A stretch of DNA of 64,000 nucleotides from Thermomicrobium sp. CFH 73360 (GTDB taxonomy: Bacteria > Chloroflexota > Chloroflexia > Thermomicrobiales > Thermomicrobiaceae): assembly GCF_023806465.1 (NCBI RefSeq), contig NZ_JAMSLS010000001.1:1-64000 (forward strand). The letters run 5' to 3'. Both the position numbers and the translations under genes were made by a program. Positions 14,624 to 56,756 of the stretch are shown piece after piece. Under the pieces are notes generated by a model that searched no databases, was not told the origin of the DNA, and saw only the letters and a program-made list of their open reading frames with translations. Every line of letters begins with the position of its first letter. Positions within the stretch are counted from its first letter, which is position 1.

Positions 14624-15790
14624 ATGACACGACCATTGCGTCTCGTGATTGGCGGCGGCGGAACCGGTGGTCACACCGTACCAGCTCTCGCAGCATTGGA
14701 CGCATTGCGCGCTCAAATCGATGTGGAAGTGCTCTGGATCGGTTCGCGCCACGGCGTCGAACGACGCTTTGCTGAGCAGAACGATATTCCCTTCCGGTGG
14801 ATTCCCACCGGGAAACTCCGCCGGGATCCAACCCCGCGTACGCTCCTTGACCTTGCCGCCGTCCCTCTCGGTATTCTGGCCGCAGCTTCTTTGATTCGTA
14901 CTTTCCGCCCAGATGTGGTCTTCGGAACAGGTGGGTACGTCAGTGTGCCCGTCGTCATCGGTGGCTGGCTCAATCGGATTCCACTCGTCATCCACGAGCA
15001 GACGGCCATTGCGGGTCTTGCGACACGGATTGCCGCACGGTTCGCTGACGCAGTGGCGATTTCCTTCGAGGCGACGCGTCCACTGCTCAGGCGCAGGAGG
15101 TCCGCGATCGTCCACACCGGCCTCCCGATCCGCCGTGAACTCTTCCGAGGCGACGCCCAACGTGCTCTCGGGCGCTTCGGTTTTACCAAGGATCTCCCGC
15201 TCGTTTATGTGACAGGCGGCGTTCTGGGCGCACACGCACTCAATGAAGCTATCGCCGCCGCCTTACCCGACCTTGTGGGGACCGTTCAAGTGTTACACCA
15301 GTGCGGGCCAGCACGGATCAATGGCGATTTGCCGCGCCTCCTCGAGCGACGTAGCATGCTTCCGTATCCGCTGCAAAGACGATACGCTGTGGTCGAGTTT
15401 CTCACCGAGGAACTCCCAGATGTCTATGCCGCCGCTGATCTCGTCATCAGCCGGGCTGGCGCCAGCACCGTTGCCGAGCTCGCCGCACTTGGCAAACCCG
15501 CGATTCTCGTCCCTCTCCCTGGGACACGCGGCGACGAGCAGACCGCCAACGCGCGCCTGCTCAATGATCTTGGAAGCGCGATTCTCCTGCCACAAAGCGA
15601 TTTGACCCCTCAACGTATCGTCACACTGGTCGAGAGGTTGGTTGCTGACCGAGAAGCACTTGCGGCAATGGGACAACGGGGAAAGGTTCTGGCCGTTCCC
15701 GACGCAGCTGAGCGCCTGGCGGACCTCATCCAGGCGACAGCTCGCGCCCGTTCTGCCGCGAACGCACCGCCTGTGCCGCGAGTGCGCTGA
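14624..15790 (+). CDS. murG: MurG, lipid II-forming N-acetylglucosaminyltransferase
   Basis: MurG adds GlcNAc from UDP-GlcNAc to lipid I on the cytoplasmic face of the membrane. The 388 aa GT-B protein has the N-terminal GGGGTGGHTVP loop, the FGTGGYVSVP stretch and IHEQ. The C-terminal UDP-GlcNAc pocket SRAGASTVAELAALGKP ends in an unusual GTRGDEQTANA rather than the common A.DNHQ.NA. The ATG at 14624 follows GGAGGAGG by about 1-4 nt, and an upstream extension of 21 codons adds no conserved residues. No other mur genes are adjacent. Its 3' end overlaps radA on the other strand by 65 bp. Confidence 0.95.
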   Translation: MTRPLRLVIGGGGTGGHTVPALAALDALRAQIDVEVLWIGSRHGVERRFAEQNDIPFRWIPTGKLRRDPTPRTLLDLAAVPLGILAAASLIRTFRPDVVFGTGGYVSVPVVIGGWLNRIPLVIHEQTAIAGLATRIAARFADAVAISFEATRPLLRRRRSAIVHTGLPIRRELFRGDAQRALGRFGFTKDLPLVYVTGGVLGAHALNEAIAAALPDLVGTVQVLHQCGPARINGDLPRLLERRSMLPYPLQRRYAVVEFLTEELPDVYAAADLVISRAGASTVAELAALGKPAILVPLPGTRGDEQTANARLLNDLGSAILLPQSDLTPQRIVTLVERLVADREALAAMGQRGKVLAVPDAAERLADLIQATARARSAANAPPVPRVR

Positions 15791-17138
15791 CCGCCTCGGC
15801 TAACGAACGAATGGGGAGCAGTCGGAGTTCGGCAGACACACTCGCCACCCGGCTGGATGCTGGGACGACCGCACGCTCGAAACCCAACCTCGCAGCTTCC
15901 TGCAACCGACGCTCCAAGGCATGGACACCGCGGACCTCGCCTGCCAGTCCAAGTTCGCCAATGTAGACGGCGGTTGGATCCAGTGGGATCCCGCTCGCTG
16001 ACGAGGCGATCGCAAGTGCAACCCCGAGGTCCGCTGCTGGCTCGACGAGACGAATACCGCCAGTCACATTCACGAACACATCCTGATCCGCAAGGCGAAG
16101 CCCTGCATGCTTCGTCAGCACAGCGACAAGTAGCTGCAAGCGTGTGGCATCGAATCCCGTGGCAACACGGCGAGGCGTTCCATAGCCAGCTGAGCTTGTC
16201 AGCGCTTGTACCTCGATGAGGATTGGACGCGTGCCTTCTAGCGCAACCACGACCGCGCTTCCTGGGGCATCCCGAACTCGCTCGGCGAGGAACAACTCCG
16301 AAGGATTCCCAACATCCCGCAGTCCCGAATCGGTCATCTCAAAGACACCGATCTCGTTTGTCGACCCAAACCGGTTCTTGACCGCGCGCAGAATTCGGTG
16401 CTGGTAAAAGCGTTCACCCTCCAAGTAAAGGACCACATCGACCATATGCTCAACCACGCGCGGACCAGCAATCAAGCCTTCCTTTGTGACGTGACCGACC
16501 ACGAAAATTGGTGTCGCAGTCTGCTTGGCGAAGCGGAGAAGCTGCGCTGTACAGTCGCGAAGTTGCGATACGCTCCCTGGCGAGGATTCAAGCCCGGTCA
16601 AGTAGACCGTCTGAATAGAATCCACCACAAGCATCGCCGGCCGCAATTCCTCCGCAACCTCAAGGACGCGATCGAGAGCTGTTTCCGGAAGAACAACAAC
16701 GCCGTCGCTGGCGGACCCGAGTCGATCAGCGCGGAGCTTCATCTGTTCCGGCGATTCCTCCGCCGCCACGTATAGGACCTCCTGACCGTATTCCGCTACA
16801 CGGAGAGCGGCCTGCAACAGGAGCGTCGACTTCCCGATGCCGGGATCACCCCCGAGCAGAACCAGTGATCCGGGGACAAGACCTCCGCCAAGCACGCGGT
16901 CGAACTCCGGCAAGCCAACCGTGAGACGTCGTCCCTCAGCACTCCTCACTTGAGAAAGACGCAGTGGTCGCGTTCCACCGCCTATCTCGGGGGCCATCCC
17001 GACCGACGACTCGACAGTCTTCTCGACCATCGAGCCCCACGCTCCACACGACGGACACCGACCGAAGTACCCTGGACTCTCCAGACCGCAGGCCTGACAA
17101 GTCCACACTGTTCTCCGCCGCTGACGCCCTCGTGACAC
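15726..17138 (-). CDS. radA: DNA repair protein RadA (Sms)
   Basis: RadA is a RecA-like ATPase that drives branch migration of recombination intermediates. The 470 aa protein has an N-terminal zinc finger (Cys14, Cys17, Cys28, Cys31), Walker A GGDPGIGKST (96-105), the RadA-specific KNRFGS motif near residue 252, and a C-terminal Lon-protease-like domain without the Ser/Lys dyad. GTG start at 17138 with GGGGG just upstream. A Gram-positive-type SOS box lies 22-35 bp before the start, suggesting LexA control. It follows clpC, as in Bacillus, but with a terminator between. Its 3' end overlaps murG. Confidence 0.96.
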   Translation of the reverse strand: MSRGRQRRRTVWTCQACGLESPGYFGRCPSCGAWGSMVEKTVESSVGMAPEIGGGTRPLRLSQVRSAEGRRLTVGLPEFDRVLGGGLVPGSLVLLGGDPGIGKSTLLLQAALRVAEYGQEVLYVAAEESPEQMKLRADRLGSASDGVVVLPETALDRVLEVAEELRPAMLVVDSIQTVYLTGLESSPGSVSQLRDCTAQLLRFAKQTATPIFVVGHVTKEGLIAGPRVVEHMVDVVLYLEGERFYQHRILRAVKNRFGSTNEIGVFEMTDSGLRDVGNPSELFLAERVRDAPGSAVVVALEGTRPILIEVQALTSSAGYGTPRRVATGFDATRLQLLVAVLTKHAGLRLADQDVFVNVTGGIRLVEPAADLGVALAIASSASGIPLDPTAVYIGELGLAGEVRGVHALERRLQEAARLGFERAVVPASSRVASVSAELRLLPIRSLAEAVSALAAQAVRSRQNGRELSPG

Positions 17139-17159
17139 GCTGCCCCCGATCAGTTAACG

Positions 17160-17185
17160 CGAACACTCGTTCGCCCAGAAGTATA
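17160..17185 (-). promoter_or_regulatory. Predicted radA promoter -10 with SOS (LexA) box at the start point
   Basis: On the minus strand TATACT (17185-17180) is followed by CGAACGAGTGTTCG (17173-17160). The latter fits the Gram-positive LexA/DinR consensus CGAAC-RNRY-GTTYG at every position. The box would cover +1 to about +14 and so block transcription. No clear -35 is seen; the region overlaps the clpC terminator. Confidence 0.6.
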
Positions 17186-17187
17186 AC

Positions 17188-17221
17188 GAATGCGGCACCG
17201 GAGAATTCCGGCGCCGCATTC
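17188..17221 (-). terminator. Stem-loop terminator downstream of clpC
   Basis: GAATGCGGC/GCCGCATTC arms (17188-17196, 17213-17221) with an inner CCGG/CCGG helix and 6 nt loop lie 20 bp after the clpC stop codon. The sequence after it on the minus strand (GTTATACTTCT) is T-rich but has no solid T run. Confidence 0.7.
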
Positions 17222-17240
17222 CTGGCAACACCAATCTCAG

Positions 17241-19694
17241 TTATGAAACAGTGCTAAGAACCTCTGCTGGCTCGATCGTCAGCAGCTCGTCCCGCACGTC
17301 AATGCGTACGGTAGAGCCTGGCTTGAAGCGTCCCGCCAGAATCGCCTCCGCCAGCGGATCTTCGATGAGGTTCTGGATGATCCGCCGCAGTGGTCGCGCG
17401 CCGAACTGCCGATCGTAACCGCGCGTTGCCAGGAGATCCTTGGCAGCGTCGGTCACCTCCAGGCCGATCTGCTGCTCGGCCAGTTGCTTCCGGATCCGTT
17501 TCAACTCCAGGTCAACGATCTGACGCACGTGCCCCGGCGTCAGCGGATGGAAGACGATCACCGCGTCGATCCGGTTAAGGAACTCCGGCCGGAAGGTCTG
17601 CTTCAACTGCGAGAGCACCTTGTCCCTCATCGCCTGGTAGTCAATCTGCGCCTTCTTCGTCGGATCCTCAGCCACGGCGAATCCCAGTGTGCCCTCGCGC
17701 TGGATCAACTCCGCGCCAATGTTCGAAGTCATGATCAAGATCGTATTCCGGAAGTCGACGCGCCGTCCCTTCGCATCCGTGAGATTCCCATCCTCCATTA
17801 TCTGCAGGAGGATGTTAAACGCTTCCGGATGCGCCTTCTCGATTTCGTCGAGAAGAATGACCGAGTAGGGCTTCCGCCGTACCGCCTCCGTCAGCTGCCC
17901 ACCTTCCTCGTAGCCAATGTATCCTGGAGGCGCCCCGACCAAGCGCGACACTGTGTGTCGCTCCATGAACTCGCTCATATCGATCTTGATGAGCGCATCC
18001 TCACTTCCGAACATGAATTCGGCCAAGGCGCGTGCCAACAATGTCTTCCCAACCCCGGTCGGTCCGAGGAAGATGAAAGTCCCAATTGGCCGCCGCGGAT
18101 CCTTCAAACCAGCCCGTGCACGTCGCACAGCCCGCGCGAGCGTCGAGATCGCCTCATCCTGCCCGATCACACGCTCGTGCAGTGCCTCCTCCATGTGCAG
18201 CAGCCGCTCGCTCTCCTCGGTATGCAAGCGGGTGAGCGGGATGCCGGTCCACATGGAGACGACCTGTGCGATGTCCTCCTCCGTCACGACGGGCTCTTCC
18301 TGCCCTTGCTCCTCCCGCCAATGCTGTTCGAGTTCCTGGATGCGCTGCACCAGCTGCCGCTCACGCTCGCGGAGCTCTGCTGCCAACTCGAACTCCTGGC
18401 TTGCCACCGCCGCATCCAGCTCACGACGCAGCGACTCTAAGCCGCGCCGCGCTTCCTTGAGCGACGGCGGTGAAGCCGAGCGGTACATGCGCACGCGCGA
18501 TGCAGCCTCGTCCACGAGATCGATCGCCTTGTCCGGGAGGAACCGATCAGTCACGTAGCGGGCAGCAAGCACTGCTGCCGCATGGAGCGCACCATCTGAG
18601 ATCTTCAGCTTGTGGTGCTCCTCGTACCGCTCGCGGATCCCCTTCAAGATCTCGATCGTTTCCTCCACGGTCGGCTCATTCACGATGACCGGCTGGAAGC
18701 GCCGCTCCAGGGCAGCATCGCGCTCGATGTACTTCCGGTATTCATCGAGCGTTGTTGCGCCGATCGTCTGCACCTCTCCGCGCGAGAGCGCCGGCTTCAG
18801 GATGTTCGCTGCATCAACGGCACCCTCGGCCGCACCAGCACCAACCAGGGTGTGGAGCTCGTCGATGAAGAGAATCGTGCCAGATTCCTTCACCTCGGCG
18901 ACGATCTTCTTCAGCCGCTCTTCAAACTCCCCACGGTACTTGGTTCCTGCCACCAGTGCTCCGATATCGAGCGCGACAAGACGCTTCCCCTGCAACGGCT
19001 CCGGTACATCGCCAGCGACAATCCGCTGCGCCAGACCCTCTACGATTGCCGTCTTCCCAACACCCGGTTCCCCAATCAGTGCCGGGTTGTTCTTTGTGCG
19101 CCGTGACAGAATCTGCATGACACGTTCAATCTCATTCTGGCGCCCGATGACTGGGTCAAGCTTGCCCAAACGAGCGGCTTCGGTCAGGTCGAACCCCAGC
19201 GCATCGAGATACGGCGTCTTTGTCTGTTGTGCACGCTGCTGATAGGCCGTGCCTTGAGCCAAGACCTGGAGCACCTGCTGGCGCACCTTCTCCAAGTTCA
19301 CCCCAAGGCTCTCCAGCACTCCAGCAGCGATCCCCTCGCCCTCACGGACGAGACCTAGCAGGAGGTGCTCTGTGCCAATGTAGTGGTGTCCAAGACGACG
19401 CGCCTCGTCGACCGCATACTCAATGACCTTGCGCGCTCGAGGAGTAAGCCCGATCTCACCGACGACCGTACTCTCCCCGCGCCCAATGATGAACTCGACG
19501 GCGCTTCGCACCTTGGGCAACTGCACGCCCATGCTCTGCAGCACGCGCGCAGCGACCCCTTCCCCTTCGCGCACAAGGCCGAGGAGCAGATGCTCCGTTC
19601 CGATGTAGTTGTGATTGAACCGCCGCGCTTCTTCCTGCGCCAGCGCAAGCACTTTCCGTGCTCGTTCCGTGAACTTTTCGAACTTATCCGCCAT
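17241..19694 (-). CDS. clpC: ATP-dependent Clp protease ATPase subunit ClpC
   Basis: ClpC is an AAA+ unfoldase that feeds ClpP. The 817 aa protein has two N-terminal Clp repeats (1-145), D1 ATPase with Walker A GEPGVGKT (208-215), an inserted UVR coiled-coil segment that marks ClpC rather than ClpA/ClpB, and D2 with GPTGVGKT plus a C-terminal Clp-specific domain. The ATG at 19694 has GGGAG 8 nt upstream; a longer frame adds 37 unconserved residues. ctsR and mcsAB, which precede clpC in Bacillus, are absent. A TTGGAG-N17-TACACT promoter lies about 115 bp upstream. Confidence 0.97.
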
Positions 19695-42530: not shown

Positions 42531-43643
42531 CTAGAGCAACTGTTCGAGCGGCACGAACGGTAAGCTCAATGCCTCGGCCACGGAAGGATGCGTGATCCTT
42601 CCTCTAAACACATTAACGCCTTTCGCCAGCGCTGGGTCGCGCTTGACGGCAGCAGTGAACCCCAGATCTGCCAGCTTCAGCAAGTAGTGCAAGGTCACAT
42701 TACTGAGCGCGAGCGTACTTGTCCGCGGCACAGCCCCGGGCATGTTGGTCACCATGTAATGCAGTATCCCGTCAACTTCATAGACCGGTGCGTCATGTGT
42801 CGTCGGTCGCGCTGTCTCCACACAACCACCTTGGTCGATCGACACATCCACGATGACGCTCCCCCGGCGCATCACCGCCACCATCTCACGGGTGATCAGT
42901 TTGGGCGCTCGCGCTCCTGGAATCAAGACGGCCCCAATGACGAGATCCGCTCCGCGGATCGTCTCGGCAATCACTTGTTCACTCGACATGCGTGTCTGAA
43001 AACGACCATGCAGGATCTGCTCCAGATACCGTAAACGCTCGATGTTGATGTCGAACAGAATAACATCGGCGCCGAGCCCAAGAGCCACTTGCGCTGCATT
43101 CGTCCCAACAGTCCCCCCACCCAGAATGACCACTCGCCCTGGCGCGACTCCCGGTACACCACCGAGGAGGACCCCACAGCCTCCATACGGTTCCATCAAA
43201 TAATAGGCGCCAACCTGAACGGCCAAACGCCCCGCGACCTCGCTCATCGGTGCCAACAAGGGCAGTGATCCATCAGGTGACTGTACCGTCTCATATGCAA
43301 TTGCCGTTACTTCTCGTTCTAGAAGAACTCGTGTCAACGCTTCGTTGGCAGCAAGATGGAGAAACGTGAAGAGTATGAGACCAGGGCGCAGGAACGGGTA
43401 CTCCGCCTCCATCGGCTCCTTCACTTTGACAACGAGCTCCGCTTCCGACCACACCGTTGCTGCATCGTCTACTAGCGTCGCTCCTGCAGCGACATAGGCT
43501 GCGTCGTTGAAACCGCTCCCAACGCCAGCACCCCGTTCGACGAGCACCGTGTGTCCATGTCGGACGAGCTCGCGAACACCATGCGGGGGTTGGGCAACTC
43601 GGTACTCACGCGGCTTGATCTCTCGGGGAATTCCGATGATCAA
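42531..43643 (-). CDS. ald: Alanine dehydrogenase
   Basis: It interconverts L-alanine and pyruvate with NAD. The 370 aa protein has N-terminal MIIGIPREIKPREYRVA, the Rossmann motif GGGTVGTNAAQVALGLGADV (about 171-190) and MPGAVPRTST. The TTG at 43643 is chosen: GGGAGG lies 7-8 nt upstream and it gives exactly the family N-terminus and length. Two mutually exclusive leader hairpins and a palindrome lie upstream, suggesting regulation, possibly by a repressor or activator. It leads the ald-xerC-glyS run. Confidence 0.94.
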   Translation of the reverse strand: MIIGIPREIKPREYRVAQPPHGVRELVRHGHTVLVERGAGVGSGFNDAAYVAAGATLVDDAATVWSEAELVVKVKEPMEAEYPFLRPGLILFTFLHLAANEALTRVLLEREVTAIAYETVQSPDGSLPLLAPMSEVAGRLAVQVGAYYLMEPYGGCGVLLGGVPGVAPGRVVILGGGTVGTNAAQVALGLGADVILFDINIERLRYLEQILHGRFQTRMSSEQVIAETIRGADLVIGAVLIPGARAPKLITREMVAVMRRGSVIVDVSIDQGGCVETARPTTHDAPVYEVDGILHYMVTNMPGAVPRTSTLALSNVTLHYLLKLADLGFTAAVKRDPALAKGVNVFRGRITHPSVAEALSLPFVPLEQLL

Positions 43644-48795: not shown

Positions 48796-51541
48796 TACTG
48801 TGATGGATTGCATCCAGCAGGCGAGCCCGCCGTTCAGGAGACTCCTGTTCTGTCCTTCGGTAGCGCCGCAGCAGCACAATCTGGCAGAGATGGAGCACAT
48901 CAACATAAGGGTTGCGGAGCTTGACCAGTCGGGCAAGGATCGGCGACCGCTCCAGGAGATCATGCTGACCAGTGACCGCCAACACCATTCGCACTGTGCG
49001 GCTGTGCTCGTCCAGGATACGTGTGAAGACATCAGCGACGTTATTTGCCAGCGACGCATACAACTCAGCGATTGCCATTTCAGCCGTCGCCAAACTGATT
49101 TGCGCGTTATCAACCAGCATCTCGAAGAACGGCCATCGCCGATACATCGCTTGAAGTGTTTCCTGCGCCCCGAATGCGAACGCTCGTTCGAGCGCTGTTC
49201 CCAGGCCATACCAACCAGGAAGGTTGACACGCGTCTGGGTCCAACTGAAAACCCACGGGATGGCACGAAGGTCAGCGAACTGTATCACTCCATGCGCTCC
49301 CGTTCGCCGAGCAACCGGGCGAGACGCCAAGTTCAGACTGGCCAGTTCGGGAAAGGGTGTCGCCATCGTAAAATAGGACACAAACACGTTACCGACTTTT
49401 ACGAGCTCCTCATATGCCTGCTGCGACCAGTCCGCCAAGGCAGTCATCAACTCGATCCACTCTGGCGAAATATTGGGCTCATGTTCGGTTGAGCTCGAGA
49501 CGAGCAGTGCATGCATCATTTGCTCCCAGTGACGGAGAGCAATCGCCGGATCGTTGTACCGTCCGAAGATCACCTCGCCTTGCTCCGTGACCTTCAGGAG
49601 CGGCGTGCGCGCCGCCGCCGGTCGCGCCCAGATCGCCCGTCCCATCGGGCCGCCACCGCGTCCAATCGCACCTCCCCGTCCGTGGAAGATTTGCAAGCGT
49701 ACCTTGTATGTCGCTGCAACTTCTGCTAGGCGCTGTTGTGCTTGATAGATTCGCCAGTTCGAGGAAACGTATCCACCATCCTTGTTACTATCGGAATATC
49801 CGACCATGACTTCTTGGACAGAGCCTCTGGAAGCAATCAGCGCCCGATACTCCGGAATATCGAGTAGCTGTGCCAGAATCTTGTGGCAGCGATCAAGTTC
49901 TGCGATCTGCTCAAAGAGGGGTACGACATCAATTCGTGACCATGCCTGCCTTCCGCCAGTGCCCACCCCGCAGAGCCCAGCCTCCCGCGCGAGCACAAAC
50001 GTCCCCAGAACGTCGGCCGGCTCGGCCGTCATTGACACGATGACCGTATGACAGGCACGTTGGCCGTTGAAGCGTTGGATCCGCGCTACCGCATCGAATG
50101 TGTCAAGCACTTCTCGTGCCTCCGGGGAAAGCGCGCCGCGTGGAAAACCAAACGGGTCAGCACGGAGTCGAGCCAGCACCAGCGCCAGACGTTCCTCTGG
50201 ACTTCGCTCACTGAAACCCACCTGACCAGAAAGCCCAAATAGCTCGGCGAGCGCTTCTCGATGCCGGGCTGCATCCTGTCGGATCTCCAACTCGGCGAGA
50301 TGGAAACCGAACACCTCGACGCGAGCGACCAAATCCGCCACTCGTCCGTCCGCGATCCGCTTTCCACCGTTCCGGCGCAAGGAATCCGCGACAAGTTGCA
50401 GATGTCCCAGGAGCTCCTCCGGCGAGGTATATCCTCCCTCCTCTCCAACGTCTGTTCGACGCAAGCGTTCCTCGATGAGGCCAAGGATTCGCCGGTACGG
50501 CTCGTCAGCCCAGGCTCGCACCGGAGTCAACCCGAGTGCTTCTCGCTCGCGCTCAATAACCGCGGTGAGCTCCGGTGTGATCGATCGCAGCCGAGCCGAA
50601 ATACTCAGTGCCCGGCGGAGTTCGACCACTTCCTCACGATACCGGCGCAGAATCGCCTCACGCAGTAGACGTGCCGTTGCTTCAGTCACCGCTGCAGTCA
50701 CTGCCGGATTGCCGTCACGATCGCCACCGACCCAGGTGCCAAGTCGTATCGGCAAAGGCCAAGGACGCTCCAGCAGCTCGGGGTACGAGCGGGCCAATGC
50801 GCGTCGCAAGGCACGACGCAGAAGTGGAACCACCTCGTAGACCGAGCCAGTGAGGATCGCAATGTTGCTCCGAACCTCGTCAAGCGGCGTCGGTCGCGCC
50901 ACTCGGGTCTCGGCCGTCTGCCAGAGCAGCGTGATCTCCTCCCGGATCCGGTCCAGCAACCACTCACGCTCGCGCGGCGCCAGACGCACATCGTCCAACT
51001 GCTGGATCAGTGGCGCGAGTGCCGCGAGCCGCTGTAACACAGTTCGCCGACGCGGCTCAGACGGGTGTGCCGTAAAGACGGGAAAGACCAAAAGTTCACC
51101 CAGAATCCGCGCGACCCGTTCAGGCTCAATGCGTCGTTCTCGCAACGTCAACAGCGCTGCTTCCAACGACTCATGCAGCGGCGGCTCATTTCGTTCTCGT
51201 TGCCGGAGCGTCCGCACCCGATGATGCTGCTCTGCAAGGTTAATGAGGTGGAAATAGAGCCCGAAGGCGCGGACCAGACCAAAGAGATCTTCGTCAGGCA
51301 AAGTCTCCATCCACCCCAGGAGCGCTCGGAGACGATCTGCAACGTTCCCAGTGGTACGAGCGATGATCGTTTCTTGCCGCGCTCGTTCGACAATCTCGTA
51401 GAGTCTTGGTCCGCCCTGCTCACGAAGTACATCTCCGAGCAATGTCCCCAAGAGATTGACTTCATTGCGCAGACCCTCGATTGGTTCTGCCCGAAGCCGC
51501 TCGACTTGGCCGCTTCGGGATAATTGGTGTTGTTCCGCCAT
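48758..51541 (-). CDS. ppc: Phosphoenolpyruvate carboxylase
   Basis: It makes oxaloacetate from PEP and bicarbonate to refill the TCA cycle. The 927 aa protein has VFTAHPSEPRR with the catalytic His, LGTWVGGDRDGNP, SNKDGGYVSS, and FHGRGGAIGRGGGP as glycine-loop markers. ATG 51541 with GAGGAG about 9 nt upstream. A single gene, divergent from coaX by 131 bp. Allosteric (malate/aspartate) sites are not resolved here. Confidence 0.96.
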   Translation of the reverse strand: MAEQHQLSRSGQVERLRAEPIEGLRNEVNLLGTLLGDVLREQGGPRLYEIVERARQETIIARTTGNVADRLRALLGWMETLPDEDLFGLVRAFGLYFHLINLAEQHHRVRTLRQRERNEPPLHESLEAALLTLRERRIEPERVARILGELLVFPVFTAHPSEPRRRTVLQRLAALAPLIQQLDDVRLAPREREWLLDRIREEITLLWQTAETRVARPTPLDEVRSNIAILTGSVYEVVPLLRRALRRALARSYPELLERPWPLPIRLGTWVGGDRDGNPAVTAAVTEATARLLREAILRRYREEVVELRRALSISARLRSITPELTAVIEREREALGLTPVRAWADEPYRRILGLIEERLRRTDVGEEGGYTSPEELLGHLQLVADSLRRNGGKRIADGRVADLVARVEVFGFHLAELEIRQDAARHREALAELFGLSGQVGFSERSPEERLALVLARLRADPFGFPRGALSPEAREVLDTFDAVARIQRFNGQRACHTVIVSMTAEPADVLGTFVLAREAGLCGVGTGGRQAWSRIDVVPLFEQIAELDRCHKILAQLLDIPEYRALIASRGSVQEVMVGYSDSNKDGGYVSSNWRIYQAQQRLAEVAATYKVRLQIFHGRGGAIGRGGGPMGRAIWARPAAARTPLLKVTEQGEVIFGRYNDPAIALRHWEQMMHALLVSSSTEHEPNISPEWIELMTALADWSQQAYEELVKVGNVFVSYFTMATPFPELASLNLASRPVARRTGAHGVIQFADLRAIPWVFSWTQTRVNLPGWYGLGTALERAFAFGAQETLQAMYRRWPFFEMLVDNAQISLATAEMAIAELYASLANNVADVFTRILDEHSRTVRMVLAVTGQHDLLERSPILARLVKLRNPYVDVLHLCQIVLLRRYRRTEQESPERRARLLDAIHHSINAIAAGLQTTG

Positions 51542-56675: not shown

Positions 56676-56749
56676 GGGCGGTTAGCTCAGCTGGTTAGAG
56701 CGCCACGTTGACATCGTGGAGGTCAGTAGTTCGAGTCTACTACCGCCCA
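56676..56749 (+). tRNA. tRNA-Val (anticodon GAC)
   Basis: 74 nt cloverleaf: acceptor GGGCGGT/ACCGCCC, D arm GCTC/GAGC, anticodon arm CCACG-TTGACAT-CGTGG with anticodon GAC reading GUC/GUU, T arm AGTAG-TTCGAGT-CTACT. The discriminator is A and only CC, not CCA, follows, so the CCA end is added by the enzyme. It has its own promoter and terminator. Confidence 0.95.
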
Positions 56750-56756
56750 CCGCAGG

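Follow-up and report, generated by a model that had tools for sequence, protein, structure and literature searches.

We propose with considerable confidence that the palindrome lying at the head of radA in Thermomicrobium sp. CFH 73360 works as a LexA operator, repressing transcription from the radA promoter. It follows from this reading that DNA damage probably turns radA on in this host and in most of its family, and that LexA would most likely exert its repression separately from clpC, the gene upstream. We infer LexA binding, repression, induction by damage and the weight of this promoter for RadA levels from sequence comparison. The window discussed here is a stretch of 64,000 nucleotides of the host genome, and its features are collected in Table 1.

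Table 1. Features of the 64,000-nt window that bear on the control of radA.
Feature	Position	Strand	Remarks
radA/sms, 470 aa, GTG start	15726..17138	-	TIGR00416 equivalog, 570.9 bits vs cut-off 403.05
Putative LexA operator (SOS box) CGAACGAGTGTTCG	17160..17173	-	over expected radA transcription start
-10 element TATACT of radA promoter	17180..17185	-	6 bp before the box
15-bp hairpin, 4-nt loop, between clpC and radA	17188..17221	-	z -5.35
clpC-type AAA+ gene	17241..19694	-	upstream of radA; ClpA/ClpB-family matches, all under curated cut-offs
Second exact CGAACN4GTTCG match	49177..49190	.	within ppc coding sequence; taken as chance

Read on the minus strand, positions 17173-17160 give CGAACGAGTGTTCG, a perfect CGAAC-N4-GTTCG palindrome, and its GAAC-N4-GTTC core places it among the Gram-positive-type LexA operators. 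The original prediction had named an exact Gram-positive LexA site here, at the predicted +1 of radA, and both letters and coordinates are confirmed. The box occupies -35 to -22 relative to the GTG of radA at 17138 and scores 15.8 with a matrix trained on lexA and recA boxes (p=0.0009 per upstream region). It overlaps or abuts the promoter: TATACTTCTGGGCGAACGAGTGTTCGCG gives the minus-strand letters from the -10 element through the box (17185-17158) and, since 6 bp separate TATACT from the box, transcription would be expected to start on, or directly beside, the first bases of the box, in agreement with the earlier placement. The -35 is not recognisable; a sigma-70 scan of 17050-17350 returned no promoter-like pair and no good -35 for radA, so that the promoter is weak by consensus. 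The gene itself belongs to RadA/Sms by the curated family model TIGR00416.

The genome encodes a cognate repressor. Its one lexA match (TIGR00498) scores 181.3 bits, above the 110.95 that the model requires, and a genome without lexA, which was to have told against the original prediction, is thus not what was found. The LexA protein aligns over nearly its full length with solved LexA (15 distinct sequences matched, three alignments shown), and its AAG, the S of GLSM and the K of TLKRF align to the solved proteins. We take AAG to be the cleavage site (Ala-Gly), and the serine and lysine to be the catalytic pair; with these roles, the host LexA has both its cleavage site and its Ser/Lys.

The same motif stands before lexA and recA of this genome. 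The lexA box, CGAACGGATGTTCG, starts 68 bp before the lexA match and lies between TTGACA and TATACT, that is, between -35 and -10, whereas the recA box, TCGAACATGGGTTCTA, lies downstream of the recA -10, the order also found at radA. A search for exact CGAAC-N4-GTTCG sites before both genes had been proposed as a check; lexA has such a site, while the recA box is of the same type and departs from the strict pattern by one outer base (it ends in GTTCTA, as against GTTCG). An exact box of this type also precedes ruvB. We suggest that LexA seated on the radA box would cover the +1 and so block RNA polymerase, that RecA filaments forming on damaged DNA would bring about LexA self-cleavage, and that radA would then be transcribed along with lexA, recA and ruvB.

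Conservation within the order argues in the same direction. The comparison comprised 41 genomes (the host's own, then those of its genus, family and order), with lexA found in 39 (it is absent from two incomplete ones) and recA above cut-off in 35. The matrix was built from 71 boxes, 39 of lexA and 32 of recA, and no radA site entered the training. Within 250 bp, 39/39 lexA and 32/32 recA upstreams carry a site with at most one mismatch to GAAC-N4-GTTC, and the three remaining recA upstreams, outside the training set, score 20.5 to 23.8. The radA upstream was read in 40 of the 41 genomes, G030 being without a full radA match, and p-values were derived from first-order shuffles of the upstreams. 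On this basis a radA box is present at p <0.01 in all 16 genomes of five genera, g1 (7), g2 (3), g3 (4), g4 (1) and g6 (1), the weakest of them, in G009 (g4), having one mismatch and p=0.0078. Repression of radA by LexA, as predicted originally, is supported by this conservation together with the encoded lexA and the boxes at lexA and recA. The matrix scan found no radA box in any of the five g5 genomes, yet all five keep their lexA and recA boxes; the wiring of radA to LexA is thus dispensable.

Elsewhere in the order the box thins out. Just one of 19 genomes from its other families has a radA box, and an imperfect one (G024, at -78, p=0.0015); G025 has a weak site at -200 (p=0.02), and in the remaining genomes of these families the radA upstream gives p ≥0.05. 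A scan of 61 genomes of the order for CGAACN4GTTCG ahead of a Cys-pair pattern gave matches in 22: 13 at radA of the host family, one at a place that is not radA (G017) and eight in other families. These last eight fall on no located radA, and in five of the eight genomes (G432, G435, G438, G439 and G444) radA was not located. In genomes of f3, another family of the order, CGAAC-N4-GTTCG closely precedes an ORF starting MPLKIEMSPES (G037:C132:16421, G438:C228:1335, G439:C185:1000), possibly another LexA target. As to the radA gene itself, it matches in two pieces inside one 965-aa open frame at G027:C43:123348-126200, a pattern that an intein or similar insert would give, and it lies within open frames of 784 to 961 aa in several other genomes (G081, G098, G071, G085).

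Aligned on the box, the ten core columns have a between-genus identity of 0.96, a value that is partly built in, since each row was aligned on its own best site; the four spacer columns have 0.40, the 45 columns before the box 0.31 and the 19 after it 0.26. Immediately upstream of the box, 13 of the 16 aligned genomes, the host's included, have TATACT or TACAAT and two have near forms (TATCCT or TAAACT); nothing similar is seen in G003.

The alternative that fares best grants the operator and denies it consequence: LexA would bind, but with little effect on RadA, the transcript coming mostly from clpC read-through or from another promoter. We regard this as unlikely. It draws on the position of clpC, upstream of radA and on the same strand, on the poor radA -35 and on the weak T-tail of the intervening hairpin (GTTATACTTC); it is opposed by the strength of that hairpin, evident in its z-score, and by the conservation of the box across genera, which implies that the box matters. 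The hairpin at 17188-17221, which overlaps the spot where the radA -35 would be, is likely the clpC terminator, and because it probably ends clpC transcripts, radA would respond to damage independently of clpC. The separation from clpC that had been claimed for radA fits this arrangement, weak T-tail included. No LexA-matrix match was found before the clpC-type gene, which presumably merits the name clpC as the usual one for such a gene order, and the window holds no match to a CtsR consensus, in a form that may be too strict. Since clpC precedes radA in lineages with the box and in lineages without it, the presence of the box cannot be put down to gene order.

Could the palindrome instead be an accident of a GC-rich genome, with no LexA function? 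We think this very improbable, although the number of sites, taken by itself, would allow it. The window has 2 exact CGAACN4GTTCG sites against 0.15 expected from shuffles, but the whole genome has 10 against 9 for a reversed control pattern; a second pattern gave 5 sites against 8 for its control, and with one mismatch allowed the figures, 215 against 181, are uninformative. We therefore rejected the genome-wide number of exact sites as evidence, given that the reversed control gave about as many and that the motif alone does no better than chance at genome scale. Three of the 10 exact sites precede radA, lexA and ruvB, and other exact sites seem to be intragenic, as is the one in ppc. The case for the radA box is accordingly made by position and conservation, not by counts: it recurs in all 16 genomes of the five genera despite diverged flanks, it is placed after a -10 element, and lexA and recA carry a box of the same type.

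Some other sites deserve a record. Two exact matches (L008 1501-1514 and L009 1501-1514, at G000:C35:143928 and 145157) flank a cation-efflux-like ORF and are embedded in longer similar palindromes of the CCCCATGCGAAC..GTTCGCATGGG type; they more likely represent a repeat, or an operator of some other kind, than LexA sites. In the window, positions 42532-42547 have a LexA-matrix score of 16.0 and stand just before a tyrosine-recombinase-like ORF, but they overlap the final codons of an alanine-dehydrogenase-like ORF; we take this site as chance. The only RNA gene of the window by Rfam gathering scores and ARAGORN is a tRNA-Val (GAC) at 56676-56751. That the radA palindrome serves a different repressor reading the same letters, as the pair of exact sites in longer palindromes beside the cation-efflux-like ORF might suggest, is scarcely credible, for RadA works in recombination and its box fits a matrix for which lexA and recA boxes were the sole source.

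With radA read as a LexA target, the history of its box in the family can be followed on a tree with moderate supports, built by a quick method from the joined RadA, RecA and LexA rows of 30 genomes. The tree separates the host family from the outer families (support 87) and groups g5 with g2 and g6 (92), leaving the branching order among these three loose. The box requires two changes on it, and two histories fit equally well: a single gain at the family's base followed by a loss in g5, or two gains. One g5 genome, G020, has TCGCACGGGTGTTAGC at -51 (p=0.16), which is perhaps a decayed box; if so, loss in g5 is favoured.

Beyond the order, 166 genomes of the phylum were sampled, 154 of them with radA at E up to 1e-60. 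We took 88 radA upstreams (28 from returned loci, 60 fetched), covering 55 of the 56 families with a radA match outside f1, the host family, and 87 were long enough to score. By a matrix that is one order's own and would miss families with another LexA motif or with no LexA, one of these 87 upstreams, that of G198 in family f15, scores 12 or more (13.5); the next best are G184 (11.4, inside the gene) and G085, again of f15 (10.1). A looser pattern matched 111 of 400 phylum genomes, control patterns also matching many; of seven such places that were read, five were radA (three in f15, two in f93) and two were not. For named genomes the best 80 loci were kept out of 592 that had been confirmed, and none of the 80 has an exact GAAC-N4-GTTC in the stretch of at most 200 bp upstream of the radA match; the set is drawn mostly from other phyla, some of its loci are short upstream and some groups may use other LexA motifs. 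A LexA box on radA seems rare among the more distant relatives of the host family.

Family f15 is an exception. Among the 10 f15 genomes met, radA was located in eight, and in seven of these its upstream carries a box that departs from CGAACN4GTTCG by one base at most. G094, G166 and G260, all brought up by the pattern scan, match exactly; G085, G198, G268 and G345, which had not been selected for an exact radA box, have one mismatch. No box is seen in the radA upstream of G044. Six of the seven boxes, all but that of G094, occupy the -35/-10 spacer, where lexA boxes lie, with a TTGAC-like or TTGCG element on one side and a TAGGAT-, TACAAT- or TACGCT-like element on the other. This different geometry, together with the many families that lack a box, points to a gain in f15 independent of the one in f1. 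In f93 the letters AGAAC-GTGA-GTTC follow CATAAT at a distance of one base and span what is presumed to be the GTG start codon of radA, in both genomes seen (G410 and G415, each found by pattern); their scores are modest, 11.5 each, and they may be chance.

These distributions incline us, if only somewhat, to the view that radA entered the SOS regulon of this phylum independently at least twice, perhaps three times. The box would have been acquired in different geometries: after the -10 and over the +1 in the host family, within the -35/-10 spacer for most f15 genomes, and, in f93, over the start codon of a radA that appears to be leaderless. Within the host family it would then have been dropped in g5 (or else gained twice). 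RadA would accordingly be an output of the damage response that is recurrently gained and lost, a reading made more likely by the box in seven of eight f15 genomes.

In Mycobacterium tuberculosis, control of radA is probably LexA-independent. The radA mRNA of this species rises about 12-fold with moxifloxacin, and the available part of the report on it groups radA with DNA repair and keeps it separate from the genes that have a LexA box (PMC7911356). The GAAC-N4-GTTC motif is stated, in what is available of a study of multi-chromosome bacteria, for the LexA of B. subtilis and of M. tuberculosis (PMC3323433). Our host resembles such Gram-positive systems in its core palindrome, in a LexA of the same family and in its boxes at lexA, recA and ruvB. 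The same text names Chloroflexi (Sphaerobacteraceae) and then limits its analysis, the motif being undefined and/or the genomes per group too few (PMC3323433). The passages available for B. subtilis name the SOS genes common with E. coli without radA (PMC10804225), and those for C. acetobutylicum treat sms under the CtsR regulon and do not include it among the LexA targets given (PMC3828012). With the clpC-radA(sms) operon of the Firmicutes, controlled by CtsR, the host shares the gene pair and its order; unlike that operon, it has a hairpin and a LexA-box promoter between the two genes. Our literature search, with subscription journals mostly outside its coverage, turned up nothing that describes control of radA by LexA. 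The operator itself is of an ordinary kind; it is radA that the cited papers, in the parts available, do not place under LexA.

With this finding radA joins the probable LexA regulon of a bacterial family, and the 71 lexA and recA boxes provide a LexA motif for the order. The finding also offers a clean comparison, in which gene order is the same and LexA is kept while the box is present in five genera and missing from the sixth, and this presence or absence across genera makes an effect of damage-induced RadA on recombination or repair testable.
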